This document shows, one piece after another, positions 9,601-64,000 of a DNA stretch of 64,000 nt (the first letter of the stretch is position 1; the number at the start of each line of letters is the position of its first letter). The stretch lies in contig JAHLMK010000030.1 in NCBI GenBank assembly GCA_019915135.1, positions 186,001 through 250,000 of the forward strand. The letters are read 5' to 3'. Source of the stretch: Strobilurus pachycystidiatus. Taxonomy: Eukaryota; Basidiomycota; Agaricomycetes; Agaricales; Physalacriaceae. Below the pieces are notes generated by a model. The model was not told where the DNA came from. It saw only the letters and a list, made by a program, of their open reading frames with translations, and did not search any database. The translations under genes and the position numbers were made by a program.

Positions 9601-12110
9601 CCTCACTATCCTTTTTGGCTTGGGTGTAGAGTGTTTCCATCTTCTCCTGCTCGTCGTCCAACTGTTGTCTATGTTTCTCCCAGACTATACGGAGACGATG
9701 TTGACCATCCCCAAGATCTGCTCTGCCTCTACCAACCCAGACTATGTTGCGGTGATTTTCGGGCCGAACATCGGTGGATAATGAGGAAAGATCGATGTTC
9801 TTCTCGCTCACAATAAGGATGATTTTATGTAAAGGATTGAAGCGATCAATGCTCTTGCCCTTCTTCAATACCAGCCACAGTTGATCTTTCCCTTCTGGTG
9901 TTGTGACTCTGGAATTGTAATGTCCCATACGTAGAGAGATCTCCGTTTCAGGGAGTTTTCTCGAGCTCTTATCAAGCGCCTTCAGCCCAAAGTTGACTTT
10001 GCCGTAGCCAAGAAAACAAGCGTCTGCAGCTGCAGAGATGCCCTTTGTTGGATCAGCGTCAAGGATAGCATCTTGCGCATCAAGCTTGTTCAGCTAGCGG
10101 CGAAGTAAGCAGTATGATCTCTCGAAATCTTTGCCACATACCTTCTCTAAGACTTTTCCCTGTTTGTTGCCAAGCCTCTTAGCCTTCGGCTGTAGCTGAG
10201 CACTTGCAATCGCCTTTTCACATATCAGATATGAATGTACTACTAGAGCTTAATCATACCTCTTCTTGCGCCTGAACTATATCCTCATCTTCAGAATCCT
10301 CTGTCTCCTCGCTGCTATCCTATTTACACGAGGATTAGGTCGCAAACACACAATCTAAAGGAAAGTACACACCGTCTGCTCGTTTCGACTTTTATTCACC
10401 TTCTTAGTTGAGATCGACTCTTTGTTTGGAGTCAAAGAATTCTGGTGTCCTGGTCACCGAAATTCCACACTTATATCAAGAATACACTTACCGTCTCCTT
10501 CTGTCTCTTGTTACTCGCCTTCTGTGCCGCCAGTGTTGCCTCTCTTACAGTCGAGGAATTCTGGTGTCCTGGTCACCAGAATTCTATAGCAATCCCAAAT
10601 TATAACGTACCTTCTTTGAGCGCTTAGCTTCACGCATCTGAAACGATAACAAGATTGTCAGGCATATACTTCATAAATACTAGTTATGTACATACAACAA
10701 CACTGGCCTCATCGCCGCTTGAATCGCTAATGACAGTTTGACTCTGATGACCCGTGAGTATACATGATCACCTCAACAATATTGTATCTCATACCTTGCG
10801 CTTCTTACTCTTGTTTGGAGAAGCCTCTTTGGGAGACGCGCCTTCCTGAGTAGACGCGTATTGTCATCAAGATGAAGATTATCTCAAATAGACAATAGAT
10901 GATACCTTGAGTTTTGCAACCATCGCTTGGGCGGCCTCACGCATCTCTTCATCACGTCGACTTTGCCTTGGCACGTTCCTCTTCTACGAGAAAAGTCAGA
11001 ACAAGCCTCAGGCGTACGGTGCTGTATATCGTACCTGGAGCTTGGCAGCCACCATAGCCTGAGCAGCGCTATGCAACTCCTCATCATGCCGAGTGCGTGT
11101 GGGCACAACGTCAACCTACACCTTGCCATGAGCGAGAGAATCTAGATCAAAGTACAGACATACCTGCTTGCTATTGGCGGACAACGCGTCATTATTAGAC
11201 TCATCAGCGTCGCTCTCATTGATATCTCTCTACAGTTTACAGTTAGTGCAAAAAGCCTTGTTATCGACTTGCCACATACCCCCCGAGTTTTCTTTGTTCG
11301 CCGCTTTTCAGCCCTCGATGCGGACTTGGCAATCTGTTTGTGTCACTTCCCTTGCTCAATAGGACAGCAGACATACCTTGCGTTTTTCACTCGCCGCGTG
11401 CTTCTTCTTTGACTTCTTATGCTGGTGAGTCTGCATAATATCAGCATACACATACAAAAGTTATAAATCAGAACATACCGAGACATCATCCGTTTCAGAC
11501 AAGGCAGATTCCGGAGTACGCTTGTGACTATCAGGCAGACCGCAGGAGATAGCGGGAGACGGAATTCGATCATCCTCTGGCTCTGCCTTGACGACAATGG
11601 GCTTAGACCGAGGCTTTACAGTCCTATCCTCCCTGTCTGATTCCTGCGTCCATCAGTATTAGTCCTTTAGAAATCCTGGTAACAACATACTGAATCGCTG
11701 CCATGAATCTCAATAACGTCGGCTACAGTAGGTGCTGGATCTGTCGAGGTCTATTCATGGCGTGTAAACAGAGGGTGAATCTATACCGAACAGCGAGTAT
11801 ACCTCATTGCCAAGGCTAAGCTCCTCCTGATGACCAACAGCAACGGCCATGGGCGACTATCATGAGGGTTAGTCTTACATCTATGCGCTTCTGCTTGAGA
11901 GCTCACCTTGTAAATCCGGGAGCGACCGCTGTCGCTGTCGGAAAGCAGCTGCTAAAGAGTGAGCCACAAAATCATTGACAACGAGCTAGAGCCATACCGG
12001 GCTAGAATCCGGGACTAAGACTCGCTCCTACATCGACTCTTCAAAGACCTATAAGATAATAACTCGAGAGGACCTACCTTGCCCTTGACTTTTTGCGGTG
12101 ACTTTTTCAT
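6662..12110 (-). CDS. Gene A: multi-exon protein with DGQHR motif (possible ParB/sulfiredoxin-like fold)
   Basis: Twenty-seven exons join from MKKSPQKVKGK at 12110 to a TAA ending at 6662, giving about 1,360 aa. Residues 1-350 come from 18 tiny exons (9-55 codons) and are charged and low in complexity, with lysine runs (KKSKKKH, NKSKKRK) that look like nuclear signals. The large exon around 10095-9512 encodes GHYNSR near residue 403 and GDGQHRL near residue 474. An N-x-R stretch followed by DGQHR is the signature of the DGQHR/DndB and ParB-Srx group, but this assignment is only by motif. The rest (to about residue 1,200) is helical and unrecognised, and the tail is acidic (DDEVDYEDD). Gene B is a paralogue: both have the N-x-R/HR-L block, a conserved WIVKVYSR or WVADIYDR end to that exon, and a shared QWA-N...DS..PS...Y block. 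The gene is probably nuclear; its function is unknown. Confidence 0.7.
10437..10466. repeat. Palindromic element, intronic copy 1 (gene A)
   Basis: GAATTC, then TGGTGTCCTGGTCACC, then an imperfect right end GAAATTCC. It is 30 nt, one base longer than the other copies. It lies wholly inside an intron on the minus strand. Confidence 0.85.
10556..10584. repeat. Palindromic element, intronic copy 2 (gene A)
   Basis: Arms GAATTCTGGTG and CACCAGAATTC pair perfectly around a 7-nt centre (TCCTGGT). The left half, GGAATTCTGGTGTCCTG, is identical to the copy in every unit of the 1,157-bp array. Confidence 0.9.
10906..11115 (-). repeat. Duplicated coding exons in gene A
   Basis: Exon 11115-11035 encodes VPTRTRHDEELHSAAQAMV and more. 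The next exon, 10983-10906, encodes VPRQSRRDEEMREAAQAMV and more. They are 27 and 26 codons, both phase 0, separated by a 51-nt intron, and align along their length. This is an exon duplication separate from the palindrome-bearing one. Confidence 0.8.
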
Positions 12111-12294
12111 CGTAGTGGGGAAAAGGAAGAAAGAAAATAGGAGTAGGGCACCCGAGCGCACTTAAATATATCCAGCTCACACTTGATCGATCGATATTCA
12201 TAAAAGGTAACTCTGTTTTACACAAGATCACGCAATCAGTGTCCTATGTTTAGCCGTTAGATCTTGTCACAAGAGAGAGCAATGAAATAACTCA
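12111..12294 (-). promoter_or_regulatory. Gene A promoter region
   Basis: This is a 184-bp gap between the stop of the oxygenase-like gene and the gene A start. A TATA-like GGATATATTTAAG on the minus strand (12161-12173) lies about 55 nt upstream of the ATG. A purine tract on the + strand (CT-rich in the transcript direction) with GGAAGAAAGA at 12125-12134 follows. The same 10-mer sits in the same place before gene B and the helicase gene. Confidence 0.55.
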
Positions 12295-18375: not shown

Positions 18376-18422
18376 CCCTTTAGAAGCGATGGTGGTGGCA
18401 GGAGGCAACGTGTCGATAAGCC

Positions 18423-19811: not shown

Positions 19812-19948
19812 GTGCCTTCGGCACTTGAGCTCTTACCACGACTTGCTCGCGCAAGTCGTGCCTCTACCCACTGGATAGTAGCCGCCGCGGCCGCCCACTC
19901 GAACGATGCGCATTCGCCTGCGCGGGACTCGTTTCCATGGAAACGAAT
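19812..19948. repeat. Cluster of three hairpins
   Basis: GTGCC-TTC-GGCAC (19812-19824), CACGACTTGC-TCGC-GCAAGTCGTG (19837-19860) and CGTTTCCATGGAAACG (19930-19945) are consecutive perfect inverted repeats. The last extends outwards with one mismatch. Confidence 0.75.
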
Positions 19949-26103: not shown

Positions 26104-26288
26104 TCTAACATTGCTGGACTGCATGTATCTTCCATTTTTTCTTCTACCTACTTTTTGAACTCTTGCACGCGTACATACACGACCGCTTTACTTGCCTCAG
26201 TATAGCAGCTTATTTCTCTCTACATATTCAATTATCTATATTGTATTATGAATCTATCTTGGTAAGTGGACACTCTTTCGTCACCCTT
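26104..26288. other. Convergent 3' intergenic gap
   Basis: These 185 AT-rich bases separate the stop codons of the JmjC-like gene (+) and gene B (-). No gene or clear terminator signal is seen. Confidence 0.5.
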
Positions 26289-29200
26289 TTAAGTACGCCT
26301 CTTTTTGCCCTCTAACATATGTTAGTAAGACCACACTGATGCACATACTGATACACATACCATCCTTTCTTTCAGTTGTCTTGACATCTTCCACTTTGCG
26401 CTTCAGTGCGCTCTGGACAGTTGCTTCCGTCATCTTCTGTCCATTGACACCAAATACATCATCGATGTATCGTGCCACAAACTCTTTCCAGTACGCTTCT
26501 TTTTCGGATGGCTTTGTTGAATCAGTAAGCCACAAGCCTTGTTCCTTTATTTGATTGATTGCCCATTGTTCAGAACAGTCCTCTTCACGAAAAGCTTTGT
26601 TCTTCATCTTCTCTTGTCGTATATACTTCATCTTGAAGAGGCCCTGTCTCTTGTAAGTATATCATTCCCCTAGACGAATAACTTCACTCACTGCTTTTAG
26701 CAAATTCAAGCCCTGGATTATTGTGTTGTCAAGCGCCTTCACTTCAACTGTCTTCCCATTGTTATCGACCCGGGTGTACTCGTAGCTCGTGAAGGTGGAC
26801 TTCATCAGTGACTTCTTCAGATTTTCTGACTCGCGTTCAACTAGAATTTCCTCCCGGAGGATGTGATTCTCCTGCATTGCACATAGGTCCCGCGTCTCTG
26901 ACAGGTCACAATCCCAATCCTCTGGCACAGTGAAAGCTCCATCCCATGTCTTCACATTTGCCGTAGTACCTGCTGGGGCGACAGAGATCCAGTCCATTCG
27001 CATCCGGTAAGCAGATGGATCTTTGAATGCTTCAAGGCTCCATTCATAATGCACAAATGCATAGAACAAATGCCGAACTAGGTGTTCACGATACTTGTAG
27101 TGTCGATCAGTTGGGTATGACTTCCACTCTGCCTCCGAAGTGGATAGCATTTTCCAGGCTAGGCCAACGTATTCCGCTTCCTTTGACGACAACTTGATCC
27201 CCTTCTTTTTCATCAGACTGTCAACGTCTGAACCATCAAGAACTGTAAGGGAGGGAATAACGTTCTTTTTAGCCAAAGCAAGCCACTCTGCAATAAGATC
27301 TTGTAACGCTTTTGAGAGCCGGGCAATATTTATGTGGTGAAGTACGCCACTGTAGCTCTCGAGAGAACTCAGTGCCACCGGTTTTCCAAGGTGGTATTCT
27401 GTCAGGTGACGACGAGCTGAGATCATAAGAGATAGGAAGCCCCCGAGACGGTTCCGGAAGAAGACCTCGGCACGTAGAAACGGAATAGTTGAAGAACCTC
27501 TTGGATCTTGTAGAGCAAAGCGCTGATGACGATTACTCATAGCAACAACACCATAAGCCAAGCGCGCATTGGACGTCACAAAGAGTGTTTGCCACTCCTG
27601 ACAGCCAGTCAACTGCAAACATTTAGTCTTCTAACGGGCAAATGTGAGTATTTGACTTACAGCAGTCCAGCTTGTTTTCCATGCTAACACTCCGCTTGTA
27701 TCCTTTTCATCAATTGGCGATAAAATATGACCCAAATCACGCAATAACGCAGGGGTAAGCAAGGGTGGGACAGTTGATAGTTTCATGCCAAACACATGTC
27801 CACCACGGCGCGTCATATTGGTGAGCAACATGTATCGGAGACTGTTGGGCAGGGCCTTGATGGTTTTTGTTTCCACGTAGCTGTTGGTGGCAAGAGATTC
27901 GGCAAGAAGTCTCTCAAAGGTCATGATATAAGTCTCCAACAAAGCATTCCATGCCTTGACTCTAGTGGGATGGCGTTCGGCATCGGCACCAAAGAGGTAA
28001 CAAAAGTTTGAAGAACCAATTGATATAGCATACGCCTGGTCGGCTGCCTCCATCAACAGTACTGGAATGTCTTCAGTCGGTGCTCGCACATCAAATCCAT
28101 TGCGTGCGGTGGCAAGAACCTCTTTGCGTGCCGCTCTTTCCATCCTTTCGAACTCATCAAAGGGTGGCAGTCCAAGGACATTGGAACTGAACAACCAGCG
28201 TAGTTGACGACGACTAGACTCAACAACAGCACTCCAAATCTGGAACAACGTTAGGGAATTTCATAACTTATCAAGGCAATTGACTTACTGCTTCAGAGTG
28301 CGAGGCTACAAAGCGTAGACGAGTCAATACCATCCAAGAAGCGGGATTTCCAAAGATCCACTCCATCGACGCCATGTCAACAAAAGTCCCCATCAATCTT
28401 GGATTGAGAGTGATTTCGTATGCCCGGTGATTGATTTTTTGATTGAAGATCTCTTGGCTCAAAATAGGGAGTTTGTCTTCAATCTCGCTGCGTTCATGGC
28501 GTGCTAGCTGATTGACCAAGGTAAGAAGCTTATTCTCCTCTGTATCAGGCTGAGTAAACATGCGCAAGTTTCCGCAGAGTCGTACAATCTGTGCAGTACT
28601 ATCCTCAGCGTGTACAATGCCATCTGGAGGTAAGGTCAGTATGCCGTCGTTTCAGTGGTGGATACTGAACCACACATACCACGATCGTAAATATCTGCCA
28701 CCCAATATTCTTTCTGAGCAAGGTCCTTCTCTAACTTGGCTTTTCCACTAAGTAGTAGATTTCTGGCCTCTGTATCTTCCACGCGGGCGAGATAGGCATC
28801 AATTTCTCTAAGACTCTTGTACATGGGTGCAACGACCTTATCACGTTGCATAGCTAGCCGATGTCCGCCATCTGCTAGTGCTGGAGGACTACGCTTAGCC
28901 TCCGATGTCCACCGAATAATGGATAGTGGTCCCGTGTTGGGTGCCTGCAAGGTAGTATGTTCAATAGCTAACGTAGTGCAGATGATTTTGACAGCACAGT
29001 CCCCACTCAAGTTCCGAATGGTGCGTCCAAAATTTGTAGAACGAAACAACGCATTGACACTGGCTTGTTCCGGACGGCGTGCATTCCATGGATTCACGCC
29101 AAGAAAGTCAGTTACTTTGAAAAGCCCTCGACCAAGGTAGTTTGCACGTAGACTCTTTTCAACTGCGCTGGCTGAGGTACGAGCAAGCTCGTTATATTCA

Positions 29201-29587
29201 TCATCCCATCCGTTATCCTGGTTCAACTGTTATATGTAAGTCTTCAGTATAACCTTAAGAAGCAGGTGTACTCACGCGTGCTAAGAAAGCATGAACTTTT
29301 GCTTGAGCTCTCTCCGATTTACTCATCTCTTGACAAAGCAAGGCCGCTGGCTCTGTATTGTCAGGTATAATTGGATTGTCCTAAGACTGAAGTAAGTCAT
29401 GATCACGTTCAACTCAAGGTCAAGGACTCACACTGGAGTCTTGACTAGCAGGTACAATCTCCAACTCTACATTTTTTGTCGATGGAATTTCCTTGTCCTG
29501 GACGCCTGAATTCACACCGGAATTTGGCACAGGTTCATCCTTGTGCATGGGTCCTCTTACGGGGCCTTGCTTTGCCGACTTTTGCAT
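26289..29587 (-). CDS. Gene B: paralogue of gene A with degenerate DGGHR motif, 8 exons
   Basis: Eight exons join from ATG 29587 (MQKSAKQGPVRG) to a TAA ending at 26289, about 985 aa. Exon 1 contains the palindromic element in frame (VNSGVQDKEIP, residues 25-35). Residues 130-137 read GVNPWNAR and 206-210 read DGGHR, matching in order the GHYNSR and DGQHR of gene A. Here Gln is replaced by Gly, so any nucleotide-binding or catalytic role of that motif may be lost or changed. The exon end WVADIYDR and a C-terminal QWAIN...DSTKPSEKEAYW block also match gene A. The chain ends with a basic EGKKRRT reached through a 49-nt intron with a CTAAC branch site. It lacks gene A's long micro-exon N-terminus. 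Function is unknown; it is probably nuclear. Confidence 0.72.
29485..29513. repeat. Palindromic element, coding copy in gene B
   Basis: GAATTT, a 17-nt spacer (CCTTGTCCTGGACGCCT), GAATTC. It has the same 29-nt geometry as the other copies, with more mismatches. It is translated on the minus strand as NSGVQDKEIP. Confidence 0.75.
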
Positions 29588-37358: not shown

Positions 37359-37387
37359 GAATTCTGGTGTCCTGCTTATGAGAATTC
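37359..37387. repeat. Palindromic element, array copy (first of 24)
   Basis: GAATTC, a 17-nt spacer (TGGTGTCCTGCTTATGA), GAATTC. The outer arms GGAATTCT/AGAATTCC still pair, but the inner right arm has diverged. Twenty-four copies are in the window, one per unit, the last starting near 63956. On the minus strand it reads NSHKQDTRIPHA, matching the helicase version in frame. Confidence 0.9.
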
Positions 37388-37740
37388 CGCGTTTTGGTCA
37401 AAGGTGATGTAGGGTGCGTGCGAGTGGCCGCGGGAGGCTTGAGCTGAGATGGAGGATGATCTGGGTGGGTGTGTGAGAATGGGTGATGACAGCAGAGGCG
37501 AGGGTGTCTGTGAGCGTTCACTTTCTTTCATGCGCAACGTGTCCGAGTGGGTGTTTCTTGCTCTCGTCGGCTTGTCGGTGTCCGTCGGAAGTGGAGGGTG
37601 TGTGCGATGGACGGAGGGATGAGTATGAGCTGTGATGAGAGTTGAGGCGAGTGGCGGGGATGTCCGGGTGACTCTGCGGAGGGTGCGTGCGGAGGAACGT
37701 GAAGGCGGGGCTGTTGTGGGCCGAGTTTGCGATTGTGTGA

Positions 37741-38190
37741 GATGAGGGTTTTATATTCTGAATCAGAAAAATGAGGCCGTCGCGGTGATACCCTATGCGG
37801 GAGCTGCGGTGAGGTATTTACTTTTCTCGTGCGGCGCGCGTTCGCATCGCTCTCACGGGCCGGGGATGAGTGCGATTGAGATGAGGGTTTTATATTCTGA
37901 TTCAGAAAGAAGAGGGCTTTCTGATGATACTATGTGCGGGAACGGGCGAGTGATTATTAAGTTGAGTGTGCGGCGATCGGTCGTGGTGCTGCTGCGAGCT
38001 GTGTGTGAGTGCGAATGAGAAGAGGGTTTTATATTCTGATTCAGAAAGAGGAGGGCTTTCTGAGGATACTATGTGCGAGAACGGGCGAGTGAGATGCGAG
38101 TGAGTTTGCGGCGCGGCTCGGGTTCGTGAGGCTCTGACGGGCTGAGGGAGTGTGCGATGCAGATGAGGATTTTGAAATGTGATTCAGGAA
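37741..38190. repeat. Four nested 140-bp subrepeats within the unit
   Basis: In the first unit, blocks starting GATGAGGGTTTTATATTCTG or a close variant recur at spacings of about 139, 139 and 143 bp. Three contain the 13-bp palindrome TTCTGAWTCAGAA (37756-37768, 37895-37907, 38034-38046). The fourth is degenerate (38177-38189). Confidence 0.85.
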
Positions 38191-47100: not shown

Positions 47101-50100
47101 GCCGGGGATGAGTGCGATTGAGATGAGGGTTTTATATTCTGATTCAGAAAGAAGAGGGCTTTCTGATGATACTATGTGCGGGAACGGGCGAGTGATTATT
47201 AAGTTGAGTGTGCGGCGATCGGTCGTGGTGCTGCTGCGAGCTGTGTGTGAGTGCGAATGAGAAGAGGGTTTTATATTCTGATTCAGAAAGAGGAGGGCTT
47301 TCTGAGGATACTATGTGCGAGAACGGGCGAGTGAGATGCGAGTGAGTTTGCGGCGCGGCTCGGGTTCGTGAGGCTCTGACGGGCTGAGGGAGTGTGCGAT
47401 GCAGATGAGGATTTTGAAATGTGATTCAGGAAGGAGGGGGCTTTGTGGTGATACTATGTGTCGGTGCGAATGGAGGAGAATGGTGCGGTTTGCTTTTTAT
47501 GTCGTTTCAAGGCGATGTATGCGTTGAGGGCCGTTCTCAGAAGGCGCGTGTCTGTGTCGGAGGCCTGTGAGCGGGTATACGGACCGGTTAGAGGGTCAGG
47601 GAGACGCGCAGTTCCGGTTAGGGTTAGAAGAGGTGCGGGTTGGTTGGGGTTCTGTCTCGGGGTGAAGAAAACGGTATTGTCTCTCGTGCGGGCGCAAAGG
47701 TGACTGTCTGTGTGAGTTTTGGGGTGAGTGTGTGAGGCTGCTGTCTGTGCGCATGTGGAATTCTGGTGTCCTGCTTATGAGAATTCCGCGTTTTGGTCAA
47801 AGGTGATGTAGGGTGCGTGCGAGTGGCCGCGGGAGGCTTGAGCTGAGATGGAGGATGATCTGGGTGGGTGTGTGAGAATGGGTGATGACAGCAGAGGCGA
47901 GGGTGTCTGTGAGCGTTCACTTTCTTTCATGCGCAACGTGTCCGAGTGGGTGTTTCTTGCTCTCGTCGGCTTGTCGGTGTCCGTCGGAAGTGGAGGGTGT
48001 GTGCGATGGACGGAGGGATGAGTATGAGCTGTGATGAGAGTTGAGGCGAGTGGCGGGGATGTCCGGGTGACTCTGCGGAGGGTGCGTGCGGAGGAACGTG
48101 AAGGCGGGGCTGTTGTGGGCCGAGTTTGCGATTGTGTGAGATGAGGGTTTTATATTCTGAATCAGAAAAATGAGGCCGTCGCGGTGATACCCTATGCGGG
48201 AGCTGCGGTGAGGTATTTACTTTTCTCGTGCGGCGCGCGTTCGCATCGCTCTCACGGGCCGGGGATGAGTGCGATTGAGATGAGGGTTTTATATTCTGAT
48301 TCAGAAAGAAGAGGGCTTTCTGATGATACTATGTGCGGGAACGGGCGAGTGATTATTAAGTTGAGTGTGCGGCGATCGGTCGTGGTGCTGCTGCGAGCTG
48401 TGTGTGAGTGCGAATGAGAAGAGGGTTTTATATTCTGATTCAGAAAGAGGAGGGCTTTCTGAGGATACTATGTGCGAGAACGGGCGAGTGAGATGCGAGT
48501 GAGTTTGCGGCGCGGCTCGGGTTCGTGAGGCTCTGACGGGCTGAGGGAGTGTGCGATGCAGATGAGGATTTTGAAATGTGATTCAGGAAGGAGGGGGCTT
48601 TGTGGTGATACTATGTGTCGGTGCGAATGGAGGAGAATGGTGCGGTTTGCTTTTTATGTCGTTTCAAGGCGATGTATGCGTTGAGGGCCGTTCTCAGAAG
48701 GCGCGTGTCTGTGTCGGAGGCCTGTGAGCGGGTATACGGACCGGTTAGAGGGTCAGGGAGACGCGCAGTTCCGGTTAGGGTTAGAAGAGGTGCGGGTTGG
48801 TTGGGGTTCTGTCTCGGGGTGAAGAAAACGGTATTGTCTCTCGTGCGGGCGCAAAGGTGACTGTCTGTGTGAGTTTTGGGGTGAGTGTGTGAGGCTGCTG
48901 TCTGTGCGCATGTGGAATTCTGGTGTCCTGCTTATGAGAATTCCGCGTTTTGGTCAAAGGTGATGTAGGGTGCGTGCGAGTGGCCGCGGGAGGCTTGAGC
49001 TGAGATGGAGGATGATCTGGGTGGGTGTGTGAGAATGGGTGATGACAGCAGAGGCGAGGGTGTCTGTGAGCGTTCACTTTCTTTCATGCGCAACGTGTCC
49101 GAGTGGGTGTTTCTTGCTCTCGTCGGCTTGTCGGTGTCCGTCGGAAGTGGAGGGTGTGTGCGATGGACGGAGGGATGAGTATGAGCTGTGATGAGAGTTG
49201 AGGCGAGTGGCGGGGATGTCCGGGTGACTCTGCGGAGGGTGCGTGCGGAGGAACGTGAAGGCGGGGCTGTTGTGGGCCGAGTTTGCGATTGTGTGAGATG
49301 AGGGTTTTATATTCTGAATCAGAAAAATGAGGCCGTCGCGGTGATACCCTATGCGGGAGCTGCGGTGAGGTATTTACTTTTCTCGTGCGGCGCGCGTTCG
49401 CATCGCTCTCACGGGCCGGGGATGAGTGCGATTGAGATGAGGGTTTTATATTCTGATTCAGAAAGAAGAGGGCTTTCTGATGATACTATGTGCGGGAACG
49501 GGCGAGTGATTATTAAGTTGAGTGTGCGGCGATCGGTCGTGGTGCTGCTGCGAGCTGTGTGTGAGTGCGAATGAGAAGAGGGTTTTATATTCTGATTCAG
49601 AAAGAGGAGGGCTTTCTGAGGATACTATGTGCGAGAACGGGCGAGTGAGATGCGAGTGAGTTTGCGGCGCGGCTCGGGTTCGTGAGGCTCTGACGGGCTG
49701 AGGGAGTGTGCGATGCAGATGAGGATTTTGAAATGTGATTCAGGAAGGAGGGGGCTTTGTGGTGATACTATGTGTCGGTGCGAATGGAGGAGAATGGTGC
49801 GGTTTGCTTTTTATGTCGTTTCAAGGCGATGTATGCGTTGAGGGCCGTTCTCAGAAGGCGCGTGTCTGTGTCGGAGGCCTGTGAGCGGGTATACGGACCG
49901 GTTAGAGGGTCAGGGAGACGCGCAGTTCCGGTTAGGGTTAGAAGAGGTGCGGGTTGGTTGGGGTTCTGTCTCGGGGTGAAGAAAACGGTATTGTCTCTCG
50001 TGCGGGCGCAAAGGTGACTGTCTGTGTGAGTTTTGGGGTGAGTGTGTGAGGCTGCTGTCTGTGCGCATGTGGAATTCTGGTGTCCTGCTTATGAGAATTC

Positions 50101-53100
50101 CGCGTTTTGGTCAAAGGTGATGTAGGGTGCGTGCGAGTGGCCGCGGGAGGCTTGAGCTGAGATGGAGGATGATCTGGGTGGGTGTGTGAGAATGGGTGAT
50201 GACAGCAGAGGCGAGGGTGTCTGTGAGCGTTCACTTTCTTTCATGCGCAACGTGTCCGAGTGGGTGTTTCTTGCTCTCGTCGGCTTGTCGGTGTCCGTCG
50301 GAAGTGGAGGGTGTGTGCGATGGACGGAGGGATGAGTATGAGCTGTGATGAGAGTTGAGGCGAGTGGCGGGGATGTCCGGGTGACTCTGCGGAGGGTGCG
50401 TGCGGAGGAACGTGAAGGCGGGGCTGTTGTGGGCCGAGTTTGCGATTGTGTGAGATGAGGGTTTTATATTCTGAATCAGAAAAATGAGGCCGTCGCGGTG
50501 ATACCCTATGCGGGAGCTGCGGTGAGGTATTTACTTTTCTCGTGCGGCGCGCGTTCGCATCGCTCTCACGGGCCGGGGATGAGTGCGATTGAGATGAGGG
50601 TTTTATATTCTGATTCAGAAAGAAGAGGGCTTTCTGATGATACTATGTGCGGGAACGGGCGAGTGATTATTAAGTTGAGTGTGCGGCGATCGGTCGTGGT
50701 GCTGCTGCGAGCTGTGTGTGAGTGCGAATGAGAAGAGGGTTTTATATTCTGATTCAGAAAGAGGAGGGCTTTCTGAGGATACTATGTGCGAGAACGGGCG
50801 AGTGAGATGCGAGTGAGTTTGCGGCGCGGCTCGGGTTCGTGAGGCTCTGACGGGCTGAGGGAGTGTGCGATGCAGATGAGGATTTTGAAATGTGATTCAG
50901 GAAGGAGGGGGCTTTGTGGTGATACTATGTGTCGGTGCGAATGGAGGAGAATGGTGCGGTTTGCTTTTTATGTCGTTTCAAGGCGATGTATGCGTTGAGG
51001 GCCGTTCTCAGAAGGCGCGTGTCTGTGTCGGAGGCCTGTGAGCGGGTATACGGACCGGTTAGAGGGTCAGGGAGACGCGCAGTTCCGGTTAGGGTTAGAA
51101 GAGGTGCGGGTTGGTTGGGGTTCTGTCTCGGGGTGAAGAAAACGGTATTGTCTCTCGTGCGGGCGCAAAGGTGACTGTCTGTGTGAGTTTTGGGGTGAGT
51201 GTGTGAGGCTGCTGTCTGTGCGCATGTGGAATTCTGGTGTCCTGCTTATGAGAATTCCGCGTTTTGGTCAAAGGTGATGTAGGGTGCGTGCGAGTGGCCG
51301 CGGGAGGCTTGAGCTGAGATGGAGGATGATCTGGGTGGGTGTGTGAGAATGGGTGATGACAGCAGAGGCGAGGGTGTCTGTGAGCGTTCACTTTCTTTCA
51401 TGCGCAACGTGTCCGAGTGGGTGTTTCTTGCTCTCGTCGGCTTGTCGGTGTCCGTCGGAAGTGGAGGGTGTGTGCGATGGACGGAGGGATGAGTATGAGC
51501 TGTGATGAGAGTTGAGGCGAGTGGCGGGGATGTCCGGGTGACTCTGCGGAGGGTGCGTGCGGAGGAACGTGAAGGCGGGGCTGTTGTGGGCCGAGTTTGC
51601 GATTGTGTGAGATGAGGGTTTTATATTCTGAATCAGAAAAATGAGGCCGTCGCGGTGATACCCTATGCGGGAGCTGCGGTGAGGTATTTACTTTTCTCGT
51701 GCGGCGCGCGTTCGCATCGCTCTCACGGGCCGGGGATGAGTGCGATTGAGATGAGGGTTTTATATTCTGATTCAGAAAGAAGAGGGCTTTCTGATGATAC
51801 TATGTGCGGGAACGGGCGAGTGATTATTAAGTTGAGTGTGCGGCGATCGGTCGTGGTGCTGCTGCGAGCTGTGTGTGAGTGCGAATGAGAAGAGGGTTTT
51901 ATATTCTGATTCAGAAAGAGGAGGGCTTTCTGAGGATACTATGTGCGAGAACGGGCGAGTGAGATGCGAGTGAGTTTGCGGCGCGGCTCGGGTTCGTGAG
52001 GCTCTGACGGGCTGAGGGAGTGTGCGATGCAGATGAGGATTTTGAAATGTGATTCAGGAAGGAGGGGGCTTTGTGGTGATACTATGTGTCGGTGCGAATG
52101 GAGGAGAATGGTGCGGTTTGCTTTTTATGTCGTTTCAAGGCGATGTATGCGTTGAGGGCCGTTCTCAGAAGGCGCGTGTCTGTGTCGGAGGCCTGTGAGC
52201 GGGTATACGGACCGGTTAGAGGGTCAGGGAGACGCGCAGTTCCGGTTAGGGTTAGAAGAGGTGCGGGTTGGTTGGGGTTCTGTCTCGGGGTGAAGAAAAC
52301 GGTATTGTCTCTCGTGCGGGCGCAAAGGTGACTGTCTGTGTGAGTTTTGGGGTGAGTGTGTGAGGCTGCTGTCTGTGCGCATGTGGAATTCTGGTGTCCT
52401 GCTTATGAGAATTCCGCGTTTTGGTCAAAGGTGATGTAGGGTGCGTGCGAGTGGCCGCGGGAGGCTTGAGCTGAGATGGAGGATGATCTGGGTGGGTGTG
52501 TGAGAATGGGTGATGACAGCAGAGGCGAGGGTGTCTGTGAGCGTTCACTTTCTTTCATGCGCAACGTGTCCGAGTGGGTGTTTCTTGCTCTCGTCGGCTT
52601 GTCGGTGTCCGTCGGAAGTGGAGGGTGTGTGCGATGGACGGAGGGATGAGTATGAGCTGTGATGAGAGTTGAGGCGAGTGGCGGGGATGTCCGGGTGACT
52701 CTGCGGAGGGTGCGTGCGGAGGAACGTGAAGGCGGGGCTGTTGTGGGCCGAGTTTGCGATTGTGTGAGATGAGGGTTTTATATTCTGAATCAGAAAAATG
52801 AGGCCGTCGCGGTGATACCCTATGCGGGAGCTGCGGTGAGGTATTTACTTTTCTCGTGCGGCGCGCGTTCGCATCGCTCTCACGGGCCGGGGATGAGTGC
52901 GATTGAGATGAGGGTTTTATATTCTGATTCAGAAAGAAGAGGGCTTTCTGATGATACTATGTGCGGGAACGGGCGAGTGATTATTAAGTTGAGTGTGCGG
53001 CGATCGGTCGTGGTGCTGCTGCGAGCTGTGTGTGAGTGCGAATGAGAAGAGGGTTTTATATTCTGATTCAGAAAGAGGAGGGCTTTCTGAGGATACTATG

Positions 53101-56100
53101 TGCGAGAACGGGCGAGTGAGATGCGAGTGAGTTTGCGGCGCGGCTCGGGTTCGTGAGGCTCTGACGGGCTGAGGGAGTGTGCGATGCAGATGAGGATTTT
53201 GAAATGTGATTCAGGAAGGAGGGGGCTTTGTGGTGATACTATGTGTCGGTGCGAATGGAGGAGAATGGTGCGGTTTGCTTTTTATGTCGTTTCAAGGCGA
53301 TGTATGCGTTGAGGGCCGTTCTCAGAAGGCGCGTGTCTGTGTCGGAGGCCTGTGAGCGGGTATACGGACCGGTTAGAGGGTCAGGGAGACGCGCAGTTCC
53401 GGTTAGGGTTAGAAGAGGTGCGGGTTGGTTGGGGTTCTGTCTCGGGGTGAAGAAAACGGTATTGTCTCTCGTGCGGGCGCAAAGGTGACTGTCTGTGTGA
53501 GTTTTGGGGTGAGTGTGTGAGGCTGCTGTCTGTGCGCATGTGGAATTCTGGTGTCCTGCTTATGAGAATTCCGCGTTTTGGTCAAAGGTGATGTAGGGTG
53601 CGTGCGAGTGGCCGCGGGAGGCTTGAGCTGAGATGGAGGATGATCTGGGTGGGTGTGTGAGAATGGGTGATGACAGCAGAGGCGAGGGTGTCTGTGAGCG
53701 TTCACTTTCTTTCATGCGCAACGTGTCCGAGTGGGTGTTTCTTGCTCTCGTCGGCTTGTCGGTGTCCGTCGGAAGTGGAGGGTGTGTGCGATGGACGGAG
53801 GGATGAGTATGAGCTGTGATGAGAGTTGAGGCGAGTGGCGGGGATGTCCGGGTGACTCTGCGGAGGGTGCGTGCGGAGGAACGTGAAGGCGGGGCTGTTG
53901 TGGGCCGAGTTTGCGATTGTGTGAGATGAGGGTTTTATATTCTGAATCAGAAAAATGAGGCCGTCGCGGTGATACCCTATGCGGGAGCTGCGGTGAGGTA
54001 TTTACTTTTCTCGTGCGGCGCGCGTTCGCATCGCTCTCACGGGCCGGGGATGAGTGCGATTGAGATGAGGGTTTTATATTCTGATTCAGAAAGAAGAGGG
54101 CTTTCTGATGATACTATGTGCGGGAACGGGCGAGTGATTATTAAGTTGAGTGTGCGGCGATCGGTCGTGGTGCTGCTGCGAGCTGTGTGTGAGTGCGAAT
54201 GAGAAGAGGGTTTTATATTCTGATTCAGAAAGAGGAGGGCTTTCTGAGGATACTATGTGCGAGAACGGGCGAGTGAGATGCGAGTGAGTTTGCGGCGCGG
54301 CTCGGGTTCGTGAGGCTCTGACGGGCTGAGGGAGTGTGCGATGCAGATGAGGATTTTGAAATGTGATTCAGGAAGGAGGGGGCTTTGTGGTGATACTATG
54401 TGTCGGTGCGAATGGAGGAGAATGGTGCGGTTTGCTTTTTATGTCGTTTCAAGGCGATGTATGCGTTGAGGGCCGTTCTCAGAAGGCGCGTGTCTGTGTC
54501 GGAGGCCTGTGAGCGGGTATACGGACCGGTTAGAGGGTCAGGGAGACGCGCAGTTCCGGTTAGGGTTAGAAGAGGTGCGGGTTGGTTGGGGTTCTGTCTC
54601 GGGGTGAAGAAAACGGTATTGTCTCTCGTGCGGGCGCAAAGGTGACTGTCTGTGTGAGTTTTGGGGTGAGTGTGTGAGGCTGCTGTCTGTGCGCATGTGG
54701 AATTCTGGTGTCCTGCTTATGAGAATTCCGCGTTTTGGTCAAAGGTGATGTAGGGTGCGTGCGAGTGGCCGCGGGAGGCTTGAGCTGAGATGGAGGATGA
54801 TCTGGGTGGGTGTGTGAGAATGGGTGATGACAGCAGAGGCGAGGGTGTCTGTGAGCGTTCACTTTCTTTCATGCGCAACGTGTCCGAGTGGGTGTTTCTT
54901 GCTCTCGTCGGCTTGTCGGTGTCCGTCGGAAGTGGAGGGTGTGTGCGATGGACGGAGGGATGAGTATGAGCTGTGATGAGAGTTGAGGCGAGTGGCGGGG
55001 ATGTCCGGGTGACTCTGCGGAGGGTGCGTGCGGAGGAACGTGAAGGCGGGGCTGTTGTGGGCCGAGTTTGCGATTGTGTGAGATGAGGGTTTTATATTCT
55101 GAATCAGAAAAATGAGGCCGTCGCGGTGATACCCTATGCGGGAGCTGCGGTGAGGTATTTACTTTTCTCGTGCGGCGCGCGTTCGCATCGCTCTCACGGG
55201 CCGGGGATGAGTGCGATTGAGATGAGGGTTTTATATTCTGATTCAGAAAGAAGAGGGCTTTCTGATGATACTATGTGCGGGAACGGGCGAGTGATTATTA
55301 AGTTGAGTGTGCGGCGATCGGTCGTGGTGCTGCTGCGAGCTGTGTGTGAGTGCGAATGAGAAGAGGGTTTTATATTCTGATTCAGAAAGAGGAGGGCTTT
55401 CTGAGGATACTATGTGCGAGAACGGGCGAGTGAGATGCGAGTGAGTTTGCGGCGCGGCTCGGGTTCGTGAGGCTCTGACGGGCTGAGGGAGTGTGCGATG
55501 CAGATGAGGATTTTGAAATGTGATTCAGGAAGGAGGGGGCTTTGTGGTGATACTATGTGTCGGTGCGAATGGAGGAGAATGGTGCGGTTTGCTTTTTATG
55601 TCGTTTCAAGGCGATGTATGCGTTGAGGGCCGTTCTCAGAAGGCGCGTGTCTGTGTCGGAGGCCTGTGAGCGGGTATACGGACCGGTTAGAGGGTCAGGG
55701 AGACGCGCAGTTCCGGTTAGGGTTAGAAGAGGTGCGGGTTGGTTGGGGTTCTGTCTCGGGGTGAAGAAAACGGTATTGTCTCTCGTGCGGGCGCAAAGGT
55801 GACTGTCTGTGTGAGTTTTGGGGTGAGTGTGTGAGGCTGCTGTCTGTGCGCATGTGGAATTCTGGTGTCCTGCTTATGAGAATTCCGCGTTTTGGTCAAA
55901 GGTGATGTAGGGTGCGTGCGAGTGGCCGCGGGAGGCTTGAGCTGAGATGGAGGATGATCTGGGTGGGTGTGTGAGAATGGGTGATGACAGCAGAGGCGAG
56001 GGTGTCTGTGAGCGTTCACTTTCTTTCATGCGCAACGTGTCCGAGTGGGTGTTTCTTGCTCTCGTCGGCTTGTCGGTGTCCGTCGGAAGTGGAGGGTGTG

Positions 56101-59100
56101 TGCGATGGACGGAGGGATGAGTATGAGCTGTGATGAGAGTTGAGGCGAGTGGCGGGGATGTCCGGGTGACTCTGCGGAGGGTGCGTGCGGAGGAACGTGA
56201 AGGCGGGGCTGTTGTGGGCCGAGTTTGCGATTGTGTGAGATGAGGGTTTTATATTCTGAATCAGAAAAATGAGGCCGTCGCGGTGATACCCTATGCGGGA
56301 GCTGCGGTGAGGTATTTACTTTTCTCGTGCGGCGCGCGTTCGCATCGCTCTCACGGGCCGGGGATGAGTGCGATTGAGATGAGGGTTTTATATTCTGATT
56401 CAGAAAGAAGAGGGCTTTCTGATGATACTATGTGCGGGAACGGGCGAGTGATTATTAAGTTGAGTGTGCGGCGATCGGTCGTGGTGCTGCTGCGAGCTGT
56501 GTGTGAGTGCGAATGAGAAGAGGGTTTTATATTCTGATTCAGAAAGAGGAGGGCTTTCTGAGGATACTATGTGCGAGAACGGGCGAGTGAGATGCGAGTG
56601 AGTTTGCGGCGCGGCTCGGGTTCGTGAGGCTCTGACGGGCTGAGGGAGTGTGCGATGCAGATGAGGATTTTGAAATGTGATTCAGGAAGGAGGGGGCTTT
56701 GTGGTGATACTATGTGTCGGTGCGAATGGAGGAGAATGGTGCGGTTTGCTTTTTATGTCGTTTCAAGGCGATGTATGCGTTGAGGGCCGTTCTCAGAAGG
56801 CGCGTGTCTGTGTCGGAGGCCTGTGAGCGGGTATACGGACCGGTTAGAGGGTCAGGGAGACGCGCAGTTCCGGTTAGGGTTAGAAGAGGTGCGGGTTGGT
56901 TGGGGTTCTGTCTCGGGGTGAAGAAAACGGTATTGTCTCTCGTGCGGGCGCAAAGGTGACTGTCTGTGTGAGTTTTGGGGTGAGTGTGTGAGGCTGCTGT
57001 CTGTGCGCATGTGGAATTCTGGTGTCCTGCTTATGAGAATTCCGCGTTTTGGTCAAAGGTGATGTAGGGTGCGTGCGAGTGGCCGCGGGAGGCTTGAGCT
57101 GAGATGGAGGATGATCTGGGTGGGTGTGTGAGAATGGGTGATGACAGCAGAGGCGAGGGTGTCTGTGAGCGTTCACTTTCTTTCATGCGCAACGTGTCCG
57201 AGTGGGTGTTTCTTGCTCTCGTCGGCTTGTCGGTGTCCGTCGGAAGTGGAGGGTGTGTGCGATGGACGGAGGGATGAGTATGAGCTGTGATGAGAGTTGA
57301 GGCGAGTGGCGGGGATGTCCGGGTGACTCTGCGGAGGGTGCGTGCGGAGGAACGTGAAGGCGGGGCTGTTGTGGGCCGAGTTTGCGATTGTGTGAGATGA
57401 GGGTTTTATATTCTGAATCAGAAAAATGAGGCCGTCGCGGTGATACCCTATGCGGGAGCTGCGGTGAGGTATTTACTTTTCTCGTGCGGCGCGCGTTCGC
57501 ATCGCTCTCACGGGCCGGGGATGAGTGCGATTGAGATGAGGGTTTTATATTCTGATTCAGAAAGAAGAGGGCTTTCTGATGATACTATGTGCGGGAACGG
57601 GCGAGTGATTATTAAGTTGAGTGTGCGGCGATCGGTCGTGGTGCTGCTGCGAGCTGTGTGTGAGTGCGAATGAGAAGAGGGTTTTATATTCTGATTCAGA
57701 AAGAGGAGGGCTTTCTGAGGATACTATGTGCGAGAACGGGCGAGTGAGATGCGAGTGAGTTTGCGGCGCGGCTCGGGTTCGTGAGGCTCTGACGGGCTGA
57801 GGGAGTGTGCGATGCAGATGAGGATTTTGAAATGTGATTCAGGAAGGAGGGGGCTTTGTGGTGATACTATGTGTCGGTGCGAATGGAGGAGAATGGTGCG
57901 GTTTGCTTTTTATGTCGTTTCAAGGCGATGTATGCGTTGAGGGCCGTTCTCAGAAGGCGCGTGTCTGTGTCGGAGGCCTGTGAGCGGGTATACGGACCGG
58001 TTAGAGGGTCAGGGAGACGCGCAGTTCCGGTTAGGGTTAGAAGAGGTGCGGGTTGGTTGGGGTTCTGTCTCGGGGTGAAGAAAACGGTATTGTCTCTCGT
58101 GCGGGCGCAAAGGTGACTGTCTGTGTGAGTTTTGGGGTGAGTGTGTGAGGCTGCTGTCTGTGCGCATGTGGAATTCTGGTGTCCTGCTTATGAGAATTCC
58201 GCGTTTTGGTCAAAGGTGATGTAGGGTGCGTGCGAGTGGCCGCGGGAGGCTTGAGCTGAGATGGAGGATGATCTGGGTGGGTGTGTGAGAATGGGTGATG
58301 ACAGCAGAGGCGAGGGTGTCTGTGAGCGTTCACTTTCTTTCATGCGCAACGTGTCCGAGTGGGTGTTTCTTGCTCTCGTCGGCTTGTCGGTGTCCGTCGG
58401 AAGTGGAGGGTGTGTGCGATGGACGGAGGGATGAGTATGAGCTGTGATGAGAGTTGAGGCGAGTGGCGGGGATGTCCGGGTGACTCTGCGGAGGGTGCGT
58501 GCGGAGGAACGTGAAGGCGGGGCTGTTGTGGGCCGAGTTTGCGATTGTGTGAGATGAGGGTTTTATATTCTGAATCAGAAAAATGAGGCCGTCGCGGTGA
58601 TACCCTATGCGGGAGCTGCGGTGAGGTATTTACTTTTCTCGTGCGGCGCGCGTTCGCATCGCTCTCACGGGCCGGGGATGAGTGCGATTGAGATGAGGGT
58701 TTTATATTCTGATTCAGAAAGAAGAGGGCTTTCTGATGATACTATGTGCGGGAACGGGCGAGTGATTATTAAGTTGAGTGTGCGGCGATCGGTCGTGGTG
58801 CTGCTGCGAGCTGTGTGTGAGTGCGAATGAGAAGAGGGTTTTATATTCTGATTCAGAAAGAGGAGGGCTTTCTGAGGATACTATGTGCGAGAACGGGCGA
58901 GTGAGATGCGAGTGAGTTTGCGGCGCGGCTCGGGTTCGTGAGGCTCTGACGGGCTGAGGGAGTGTGCGATGCAGATGAGGATTTTGAAATGTGATTCAGG
59001 AAGGAGGGGGCTTTGTGGTGATACTATGTGTCGGTGCGAATGGAGGAGAATGGTGCGGTTTGCTTTTTATGTCGTTTCAAGGCGATGTATGCGTTGAGGG

Positions 59101-62100
59101 CCGTTCTCAGAAGGCGCGTGTCTGTGTCGGAGGCCTGTGAGCGGGTATACGGACCGGTTAGAGGGTCAGGGAGACGCGCAGTTCCGGTTAGGGTTAGAAG
59201 AGGTGCGGGTTGGTTGGGGTTCTGTCTCGGGGTGAAGAAAACGGTATTGTCTCTCGTGCGGGCGCAAAGGTGACTGTCTGTGTGAGTTTTGGGGTGAGTG
59301 TGTGAGGCTGCTGTCTGTGCGCATGTGGAATTCTGGTGTCCTGCTTATGAGAATTCCGCGTTTTGGTCAAAGGTGATGTAGGGTGCGTGCGAGTGGCCGC
59401 GGGAGGCTTGAGCTGAGATGGAGGATGATCTGGGTGGGTGTGTGAGAATGGGTGATGACAGCAGAGGCGAGGGTGTCTGTGAGCGTTCACTTTCTTTCAT
59501 GCGCAACGTGTCCGAGTGGGTGTTTCTTGCTCTCGTCGGCTTGTCGGTGTCCGTCGGAAGTGGAGGGTGTGTGCGATGGACGGAGGGATGAGTATGAGCT
59601 GTGATGAGAGTTGAGGCGAGTGGCGGGGATGTCCGGGTGACTCTGCGGAGGGTGCGTGCGGAGGAACGTGAAGGCGGGGCTGTTGTGGGCCGAGTTTGCG
59701 ATTGTGTGAGATGAGGGTTTTATATTCTGAATCAGAAAAATGAGGCCGTCGCGGTGATACCCTATGCGGGAGCTGCGGTGAGGTATTTACTTTTCTCGTG
59801 CGGCGCGCGTTCGCATCGCTCTCACGGGCCGGGGATGAGTGCGATTGAGATGAGGGTTTTATATTCTGATTCAGAAAGAAGAGGGCTTTCTGATGATACT
59901 ATGTGCGGGAACGGGCGAGTGATTATTAAGTTGAGTGTGCGGCGATCGGTCGTGGTGCTGCTGCGAGCTGTGTGTGAGTGCGAATGAGAAGAGGGTTTTA
60001 TATTCTGATTCAGAAAGAGGAGGGCTTTCTGAGGATACTATGTGCGAGAACGGGCGAGTGAGATGCGAGTGAGTTTGCGGCGCGGCTCGGGTTCGTGAGG
60101 CTCTGACGGGCTGAGGGAGTGTGCGATGCAGATGAGGATTTTGAAATGTGATTCAGGAAGGAGGGGGCTTTGTGGTGATACTATGTGTCGGTGCGAATGG
60201 AGGAGAATGGTGCGGTTTGCTTTTTATGTCGTTTCAAGGCGATGTATGCGTTGAGGGCCGTTCTCAGAAGGCGCGTGTCTGTGTCGGAGGCCTGTGAGCG
60301 GGTATACGGACCGGTTAGAGGGTCAGGGAGACGCGCAGTTCCGGTTAGGGTTAGAAGAGGTGCGGGTTGGTTGGGGTTCTGTCTCGGGGTGAAGAAAACG
60401 GTATTGTCTCTCGTGCGGGCGCAAAGGTGACTGTCTGTGTGAGTTTTGGGGTGAGTGTGTGAGGCTGCTGTCTGTGCGCATGTGGAATTCTGGTGTCCTG
60501 CTTATGAGAATTCCGCGTTTTGGTCAAAGGTGATGTAGGGTGCGTGCGAGTGGCCGCGGGAGGCTTGAGCTGAGATGGAGGATGATCTGGGTGGGTGTGT
60601 GAGAATGGGTGATGACAGCAGAGGCGAGGGTGTCTGTGAGCGTTCACTTTCTTTCATGCGCAACGTGTCCGAGTGGGTGTTTCTTGCTCTCGTCGGCTTG
60701 TCGGTGTCCGTCGGAAGTGGAGGGTGTGTGCGATGGACGGAGGGATGAGTATGAGCTGTGATGAGAGTTGAGGCGAGTGGCGGGGATGTCCGGGTGACTC
60801 TGCGGAGGGTGCGTGCGGAGGAACGTGAAGGCGGGGCTGTTGTGGGCCGAGTTTGCGATTGTGTGAGATGAGGGTTTTATATTCTGAATCAGAAAAATGA
60901 GGCCGTCGCGGTGATACCCTATGCGGGAGCTGCGGTGAGGTATTTACTTTTCTCGTGCGGCGCGCGTTCGCATCGCTCTCACGGGCCGGGGATGAGTGCG
61001 ATTGAGATGAGGGTTTTATATTCTGATTCAGAAAGAAGAGGGCTTTCTGATGATACTATGTGCGGGAACGGGCGAGTGATTATTAAGTTGAGTGTGCGGC
61101 GATCGGTCGTGGTGCTGCTGCGAGCTGTGTGTGAGTGCGAATGAGAAGAGGGTTTTATATTCTGATTCAGAAAGAGGAGGGCTTTCTGAGGATACTATGT
61201 GCGAGAACGGGCGAGTGAGATGCGAGTGAGTTTGCGGCGCGGCTCGGGTTCGTGAGGCTCTGACGGGCTGAGGGAGTGTGCGATGCAGATGAGGATTTTG
61301 AAATGTGATTCAGGAAGGAGGGGGCTTTGTGGTGATACTATGTGTCGGTGCGAATGGAGGAGAATGGTGCGGTTTGCTTTTTATGTCGTTTCAAGGCGAT
61401 GTATGCGTTGAGGGCCGTTCTCAGAAGGCGCGTGTCTGTGTCGGAGGCCTGTGAGCGGGTATACGGACCGGTTAGAGGGTCAGGGAGACGCGCAGTTCCG
61501 GTTAGGGTTAGAAGAGGTGCGGGTTGGTTGGGGTTCTGTCTCGGGGTGAAGAAAACGGTATTGTCTCTCGTGCGGGCGCAAAGGTGACTGTCTGTGTGAG
61601 TTTTGGGGTGAGTGTGTGAGGCTGCTGTCTGTGCGCATGTGGAATTCTGGTGTCCTGCTTATGAGAATTCCGCGTTTTGGTCAAAGGTGATGTAGGGTGC
61701 GTGCGAGTGGCCGCGGGAGGCTTGAGCTGAGATGGAGGATGATCTGGGTGGGTGTGTGAGAATGGGTGATGACAGCAGAGGCGAGGGTGTCTGTGAGCGT
61801 TCACTTTCTTTCATGCGCAACGTGTCCGAGTGGGTGTTTCTTGCTCTCGTCGGCTTGTCGGTGTCCGTCGGAAGTGGAGGGTGTGTGCGATGGACGGAGG
61901 GATGAGTATGAGCTGTGATGAGAGTTGAGGCGAGTGGCGGGGATGTCCGGGTGACTCTGCGGAGGGTGCGTGCGGAGGAACGTGAAGGCGGGGCTGTTGT
62001 GGGCCGAGTTTGCGATTGTGTGAGATGAGGGTTTTATATTCTGAATCAGAAAAATGAGGCCGTCGCGGTGATACCCTATGCGGGAGCTGCGGTGAGGTAT

Positions 62101-62403
62101 TTACTTTTCTCGTGCGGCGCGCGTTCGCATCGCTCTCACGGGCCGGGGATGAGTGCGATTGAGATGAGGGTTTTATATTCTGATTCAGAAAGAAGAGGGC
62201 TTTCTGATGATACTATGTGCGGGAACGGGCGAGTGATTATTAAGTTGAGTGTGCGGCGATCGGTCGTGGTGCTGCTGCGAGCTGTGTGTGAGTGCGAATG
62301 AGAAGAGGGTTTTATATTCTGATTCAGAAAGAGGAGGGCTTTCTGAGGATACTATGTGCGAGAACGGGCGAGTGAGATGCGAGTGAGTTTGCGGCGCGGC
62401 TCG

Positions 62404-62590
62404 GGTTCGTGAGGCTCTGACGGGCTGAGGGAGTGGTGCGATGCAGATGAGGATTTTGAAATGTGATTCAGGAAGGAGGGGGCTTTGTGGTGATACTATG
62501 TGTCGGTGCGAATGGAGGAGAATGGTGCGGTTGCTTTTATGTCGTTCAAGGCGATGTATGCGTTGAGGGCCGTTCTCAGAAGTGCGCGTG
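62404..62590. repeat. Variant patch in a late array unit
   Basis: Several one-base changes and indels are clustered here (GGGAGTGGTGCG; CGGTTGCTTTTATG; CAGAAGTGCGCG), while the flanking units are otherwise uniform. A similar cluster lies at about 45070-45220, in the same part of the unit. Confidence 0.7.
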
Positions 62591-64000
62591 TCTGTGTCGG
62601 AGGCCTGTGAGCGGGTATACGGACCGGTTAGAGGGTCAGGGAGACGCGCAGTTCCGGTTAGGGTTAGAAGAGGTGCGGGTTGGTTGGGGTTCTGTCTCGG
62701 GGTGAAGAAAACGGTATTGTCTCTCGTGCGGGCGCAAAGGTGACTGTCTGTGTGAGTTTTGGGGTGAGTGTGTGAGGCTGCTGTCTGTGCGCATGTGGAA
62801 TTCTGGTGTCCTGCTTATGAGAATTCCGCGTTTTGGTCAAAGGTGATGTAGGGTGCGTGCGAGTGGCCGCGGGAGGCTTGAGCTGAGATGGAGGATGATC
62901 TGGGTGGGTGTGTGAGAATGGGTGATGACAGCAGAGGCGAGGGTGTCTGTGAGCGTTCACTTTCTTTCATGCGCAACGTGTCCGAGTGGGTGTTTCTTGC
63001 TCTCGTCGGCTTGTCGGTGTCCGTCGGAAGTGGAGGGTGTGTGCGATGGACGGAGGGATGAGTATGAGCTGTGATGAGAGTTGAGGCGAGTGGCGGGGAT
63101 GTCCGGGTGACTCTGCGGAGGGTGCGTGCGGAGGAACGTGAAGGCGGGGCTGTTGTGGGCCGAGTTTGCGATTGTGTGAGATGAGGGTTTTATATTCTGA
63201 ATCAGAAAAATGAGGCCGTCGCGGTGATACCCTATGCGGGAGCTGCGGTGAGGTATTTACTTTTCTCGTGCGGCGCGCGTTCGCATCGCTCTCACGGGCC
63301 GGGGATGAGTGCGATTGAGATGAGGGTTTTATATTCTGATTCAGAAAGAAGAGGGCTTTCTGATGATACTATGTGCGGGAACGGGCGAGTGATTATTAAG
63401 TTGAGTGTGCGGCGATCGGTCGTGGTGCTGCTGCGAGCTGTGTGTGAGTGCGAATGAGAAGAGGGTTTTATATTCTGATTCAGAAAGAGGAGGGCTTTCT
63501 GAGGATACTATGTGCGAGAACGGGCGAGTGAGATGCGAGTGAGTTTGCGGCGCGGCTCGGGTTCGTGAGGCTCTGACGGGCTGAGGGAGTGTGCGATGCA
63601 GATGAGGATTTTGAAATGTGATTCAGGAAGGAGGGGGCTTTGTGGTGATACTATGTGTCGGTGCGAATGGAGGAGAATGGTGCGGTTTGCTTTTTATGTC
63701 GTTTCAAGGCGATGTATGCGTTGAGGGCCGTTCTCAGAAGGCGCGTGTCTGTGTCGGAGGCCTGTGAGCGGGTATACGGACCGGTTAGAGGGTCAGGGAG
63801 ACGCGCAGTTCCGGTTAGGGTTAGAAGAGGTGCGGGTTGGTTGGGGTTCTGTCTCGGGGTGAAGAAAACGGTATTGTCTCTCGTGCGGGCGCAAAGGTGA
63901 CTGTCTGTGTGAGTTTTGGGGTGAGTGTGTGAGGCTGCTGTCTGTGCGCATGTGGAATTCTGGTGTCCTGCTTATGAGAATTCCGCGTTTTGGTCAAAGG

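Follow-up and report, generated by a model that had tools for sequence, protein, structure and literature searches.

Two different 29-bp palindromic motifs of equal build are found in homologous genes at two chromosome-end loci of the basidiomycete Strobilurus pachycystidiatus. The first, motif A, lies in the stretch that we analyzed (the window, 64,000 nt, C30:186001-250000), where C30 denotes contig JAHLMK010000030.1, which has 284,865 bases and carries TTAGGG-type repeats at its right end; the second, motif B, lies on another contig, C49. The carriers are telomere-linked helicase (TLH) genes, which have a RecQ-like helicase core, and genes of a family named here after its member in the window, gene A. 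From the sequences we tentatively propose that the palindromes are putative dyad sites, of locus-specific sequence, for a dimeric DNA-binding protein of the TLH-gene A set, a reading that we regard as quite possible. If each TLH locus has its own dyad sites, it would form a self-contained unit that has a recognition system of its own and whose function can be tested. To our knowledge, the role of fungal subtelomeric RecQ-like helicase genes is not settled, and cis-acting sites are not known for them.

Two palindromic motifs and the genes that carry them

Motif A has the consensus GAATTCTGGTGTCC-N-GGACACCAGAATTC, with palindromic arms of 14 nt on either side of a single centre nucleotide, and on C30 it occurs three times in the TLH gene, once in gene 2 and twice in gene A, all of them read on the minus strand (splice sites of the C30 and C49 genes are throughout inferred from sequence). 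The TLH gene (29923..35729) consists of a 5' exon with the three copies, a weak C2H2-like, presumably OrsD-like segment and a RecQ-like helicase core, matched by Pfam DEAD (4.6e-13) and Helicase_C (3.4e-15) at 30886-32295; its open 5' exon leads to the next exon via an inferred intron, for which 35123-35077 is the best candidate. The three copies are located at 35525..35553, 35435..35463 and 35342..35370, where the frame reads DSGVQDTGI, NSGVQDTRI and NSTVQDTKI, respectively. Gene 2 (26284..29587, seven inferred exons, an LADGGHRL motif, 3' limit provisional) follows directly 3' of the TLH gene and carries the most diverged copy (29485..29513, 6 mismatches, frame NSGVQDKEI) in its first inferred coding exon; the copies of the TLH gene and of gene 2 lie within open reading frames. 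The copies of gene A (core part 7552..10950, with short 5' exons, two 50-nt introns and an LGDGQHRL motif, limits provisional) overlap inferred 3' splice sites, the one at 10556..10584 (13 of 14 pairs) lying across the first of them and the one at 10437..10465 (11 of 14 pairs) across the next. Gene A and gene 2 are paralogs with a common L-x-D-G-x-H-R-L; a search of protein databases with gene 2 gave no match at E 0.001 among 8000 scored candidates. In the other open reading frames of the window Pfam gave sub-threshold matches only, including C2H2 and DacZ_P (0.0019, below the cut-off), and Rfam at gathering thresholds gave no match.

An earlier note on this DNA had described these sites, together with one site per unit of a satellite array, by the layout GAATTC-17-GAATTC, and all of them were found where it had placed them. 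The layout is exact at 26 of the 30 sites (10556, 35435 and 24 array copies), while at 10437, 29485, 35342 and 35525 one end is one base off; the copy at 10437, given there as 30 nt long, has 29 nt with one such end. Its observation that the protease, oxygenase-like and JmjC genes contain no copy holds, because a scan of positions 1-37400 with a 31-nt consensus, allowing up to 11 mismatches, returned only the seven named kinds of site. For the genome-wide search (51,781,917 bases in 61 contigs) we used a degenerate 30-nt pattern with at most 3 mismatches and the reversed pattern as control. Seven places were found, five in the window and two on contig C12, against none for the control; at this threshold the pattern misses the copy at 29485 and the array copies, the latter having 5 mismatches. 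The two C12 copies sit in a copy of gene A with 94.7% DNA identity over 1200 bases and three stops in the exon match. The bare layout GAATTC-17-GAATTC gave 55 forward matches, at least 44 of them in the array, and its matches outside the array (C9, C12:361280 and C17) were not above the 11 of the reversed control. The signal of motif A sits in the inner arms and not in the bare layout.

Palindromes with at least 12 of 14 pairs and a gap of 1 nt were observed three times at positions 1-37300, compared to a mean of 0.0 in 20 single-base shuffles: motif A at 10556 and 35435, and an unrelated palindrome, palindrome C, at 20184. In 24 other loci (84,458 bases, a non-random set of which two loci were chosen for palindrome C) we counted six such palindromes at a gap of 0 or 1, four of which are palindromes labelled C and E and two of which are AT-rich.

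The array contributes 24 copies of motif A to the window (37359..63983), one per unit of about 1157 bp. These copies keep an intact arm on one side, with the inner part of the opposite arm degenerate (9 of 14 pairs). The array extends on C30 past the window end. When a 111-base piece of the unit was searched genome-wide, all 40 scored matches, out of 49 candidates, were on C30. The array apparently comprises about 49 copies and is private to this contig. Within its units (37359-64000) there are also a CGGTTAGGGTTAG stretch, which is telomere-like, and subrepeats of 139 bp. Another repeat, with a period of 606 bp, lies before the telomere at C30:282866-284865, and 90 bases of it recur without change on C1, close to another helicase match.

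A genome search with the TLH gene gave 26 matches at E<=0.001, some of them to other helicases; the top four lie on C30, C49, C1 and C25, and further matches are on C41, C6 and C50, among others. Like C30, C49 ends in TTAGGG-type repeats, so that the TLH gene of the window is near a telomere and has a paralog at another chromosome end. We read the 5' regions of the C30 gene and of five paralogs (C49, C1, C25, C37 and C12). The C49 paralog carries four in-frame copies (spacings 81, 54 and 60) of motif B, TGATTTYGTCCACC-N-GGTGGTCAAAATCA, a 29-bp palindrome whose sequence differs from that of motif A; 7 of the 14 half-site bases are common to both (P about 0.04, assuming equal base frequencies and one fixed register). 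At most 3 mismatches being allowed, motif B was found at seven places in the genome (reversed control 0): four in the C49 TLH gene, two at C49:31117 and 31344, and one at C9:1620860. The copies at 31 kb on C49 belong to a gene A paralog, recognised as such by the similarity of its following exons to the gene A family. It has five B copies in total, of which four begin about 8 nt downstream of the start of the donor GT, within inferred introns 50-52 nt long. Contig C9 has two B copies at a distance of 104 bp in a stretch where no gene was recognised; one of the two has 5 mismatches. The GAATTC-17-GAATTC site 279 bp from a B copy on this contig was not counted as motif A, from which it has 6 mismatches.

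The palindrome remains tied to a subtelomeric gene set, as the earlier note had it, namely to the TLH gene, to gene 2 next to it and to gene A, a paralog of gene 2. It had seen in this one repeat family, and this part fell: in the C49 paralogs of the TLH gene and of gene A the 29-nt palindrome is a different one, and therefore there are at least two locus-specific motifs. The enrichment at other chromosome ends and in the same gene families that would have supported it was observed for the 29-nt layout, in the C49 TLH gene and gene A paralog, but not for the sequence, because at <=3 mismatches motif A is confined to C30 and the C12 copy of gene A, and the scored array matches to C30.

The conserved unit and readings of its role

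For the limits of the conserved unit we compared copies between genes in gene orientation (motif A, 7 copies and 17 pairs, the C12 copies being excluded; motif B, 11 copies and 38 pairs). Identity is 0.72 and 0.82 in the two arms of motif A, with flanks at 0.21-0.29, and 0.82 and 0.88 in the arms of motif B; for both motifs together the flanking blocks range from 0.21 to 0.33. Because conservation ends at the arm edges, the unit is the palindrome itself. Its copies stand in inferred exons, at a splice site, in introns of about 50 nt, in intergenic DNA (C9) and in a satellite. From these varied contexts it follows that the common constraint is on the DNA and that neither a peptide nor splicing alone accounts for the two motifs. 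The four copies of the C49 TLH exon have a run of six codons that is invariant, silent sites included, whereas elsewhere there are 3 amino-acid-changing changes and 1 silent change. The centre base of motif B has an identity of 0.21, as for a free centre between half-sites.

We suggest that a dimeric protein encoded by the subtelomeric TLH-gene A set may recognise the 29-bp dyads. One to five sites stand in the 5' part of each carrier gene, like clustered operators or iterons, and might serve in its regulation. Each chromosome-end locus would have its own site sequence, A on C30 and B on C49, as if protein and site changed together, and the array would add about 49 half-intact sites at the C30 end, so that the same protein could load on the chromosome end. 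The gene A family is a candidate binder, because the loci with good palindromes (C30, C12 and C49) have genes of the gene A type. An extension of this proposal, which we consider quite improbable, is a self-recognition of chromosome ends: a gene A-family protein with a fast-changing dyad specificity would bind the sites of its own locus, both those of the TLH and gene A-type genes and those of the array near the telomere with its about 49 copies, and might mark, silence or maintain that end in the manner of ParB-type proteins at parS clusters.

Several observations weigh against dyad sites bound by such a protein. Contigs C25 and C1 have gene A-type genes and yet decayed palindromes or none: the C25 paralog has only decayed copies at the corresponding places, 8-9 mismatches from motif B and conserved no better than the flanks of about 70%, and in the stretch of the C1 paralog that was read, which diverges from C25 after 555 bases, nothing like A or B was found. 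Among the five other TLH 5' regions multi-copy palindromes were found on C49 only, with at most one 11/14 palindrome each on C1, C25, C37 and C12, which amounts to about two independent absences because C1 resembles C25 and C12 resembles C37. The paralogs on C37 and C46 have neither A nor B and only single-copy palindromes, e.g. 12/14 with a gap of 2. The centre base of motif A has an identity of 1.0, i.e. it is not free, and the frequent silent changes among the C30 TLH and gene 2 copies fit a peptide too. In 7 of the 11 B copies one mismatched pair is common, and the gene copies of both motifs have a single orientation relative to their gene, so the copies may stem from one another and a functionless spread is possible. 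As to the binder, the DGxHR motif of the gene A family recalls, as we presume, ParB/sulfiredoxin-like and DGQHR proteins, a resemblance supported by no profile match: with a 5-member alignment, neither a match of this kind (DGQHR) nor any DNA-binding domain was recognised in PDB, NCBIfam and Pfam at E<=10. A structure model of the gene 2 exon from a 2-sequence alignment had a poor fold (mean pLDDT 49.2).

Given the palindrome-poor helicase paralogs and the decayed C25 copies, a functionless spread stays a serious rival, although we judge it somewhat unlikely. Here the palindrome would be a tiny mobile or recombination-spread repeat, copied between the neighbouring genes of one locus and without function for them. 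The sharp edges, the shared mismatched pair, the fixed orientation and the decay on C25 would all fit this, as would the tandem exon-intron duplication in gene A (spacing 119) and in the C49 paralog (211, 208 and 227). However, at <=3 mismatches the two different motifs are almost limited to two loci, and there to the same pair of gene types, seven places for each being little dispersal for a mobile element, and none of the 18 copies tested has a target-site duplication of 2-10 bases.

A hairpin in the pre-mRNA that controls splicing or translation is, in our view, rather unlikely. In gene A the motif overlies the 3' splice site, in the C49 paralog it occupies introns of 50-52 nt, gene-strand hairpins of -5.7 to -17.5 kcal/mol are predicted in 17 of 20 copies (one array copy among the 20), and the third 29-nt palindrome, at 20184, likewise has an intron-like context, with near-constant arms and a variable loop. 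However, there is no excess of G-U over A-C changes, as expected if pairing were kept through G-U changes: the arm-pair mismatches, the array copy being left out, are 6 G-U and 8 A-C in motif A and 6 G-U and 7 A-C in motif B, 12 against 15 altogether, and so similar numbers give no sign of RNA pairing. Moreover, copies stand in inferred exons, intergenic DNA and satellite as well, and the intron position differs between C30 and C49. The fixed orientation was set aside as evidence of an RNA role, there being too few independent events.

That a short linear motif in disordered N-terminal tails (NSGVQDTRIP in C30, DFVHPVVKI in C49) conserves the DNA is very unlikely. The TLH spacings are all multiples of three (93 and 90 in C30; those of C49 as given above), gene 2 reads the motif in the same frame as the TLH gene, and silent changes are common in the C30 copies. 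Against this, the gene A copies are mostly intronic by our exon assignment, the array and C9 copies are non-coding, the C49 copies show 1 silent change against 3 amino-acid changes, and the loci differ in the peptide while both DNA motifs are palindromes of equal length. Finally, the motif could be a site at which a nuclease or recombinase encoded by the element cuts or recombines DNA to move or maintain the subtelomeric unit. The size, the dyad build and the regular occurrence, once in each unit, in a long homogeneous array close to a chromosome end would suit this reading, but it is extremely unlikely, as neither a nuclease nor a recombinase domain was found in 19 scanned open reading frames or in later domain scans.

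Neighbouring palindromes and gene A relatives

Palindrome C (20184-20212) is GGATACGCCAGT-N5-ACTGGCGTATCC and was found at 16 places at <=3 mismatches, among them sites on C1, C25 and C49 that lie about 6-9 kb upstream of TLH genes. A second palindrome, at 19924-19951, lies 260 bp from it within a repeated element and accompanies the 20184 type in 4 of 5 loci compared. In the large open reading frame 271-2586 there is a single 28-bp palindrome with 13 of 14 pairs (1032-1059), of which no second copy closer than 8 mismatches was found in the window and the other loci compared.

The family of gene A and gene 2, with an L-x-D/N-G-x-H-R-like motif but no domain that the searches recognised, stands beside TLH genes on C30 and C1. 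The order of the TLH gene and gene 2 on C1 is that of C30, the gene 2 exon being 48% identical, and a gene A-like fragment was observed at C9:1152788.

Comparison with known systems

Subtelomeric RecQ helicases are known in fungi (PMC7473861, PMC8381367). For Agaricus bisporus var. burnettii the former describes 19 gene models of RecQ type in subtelomeric positions, and it cites Ustilago maydis, Magnaporthe and Metarhizium for such genes. A text search of both papers found no palindromic sites, and at the level of listings and abstract openings the literature searched described none in subtelomeric RecQ helicases. The gene in the window resembles the fungal TLH genes in its RecQ-like core, the adjoining telomeric repeats and the paralogs near other contig ends.

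Among palindromes of other kinds, introners and intron-borne miniature inverted-repeat transposable elements (MITEs) are palindromes within short introns, while motifs A and B also stand in exons, satellite and intergenic DNA, in few copies and with no target-site duplication. Rickettsia palindromic elements and similar mini-repeats are palindromes in the frame of unrelated genes, longer and genome-wide; here each of the two sequences is almost restricted to a single locus. Operators, iterons and parS sites are palindromic, clustered, in or next to the gene of their presumed binder and element-specific, and they are bound by dimeric proteins, whereas motifs A and B are found in a eukaryote, inside exons and introns, with a binder that is putative.

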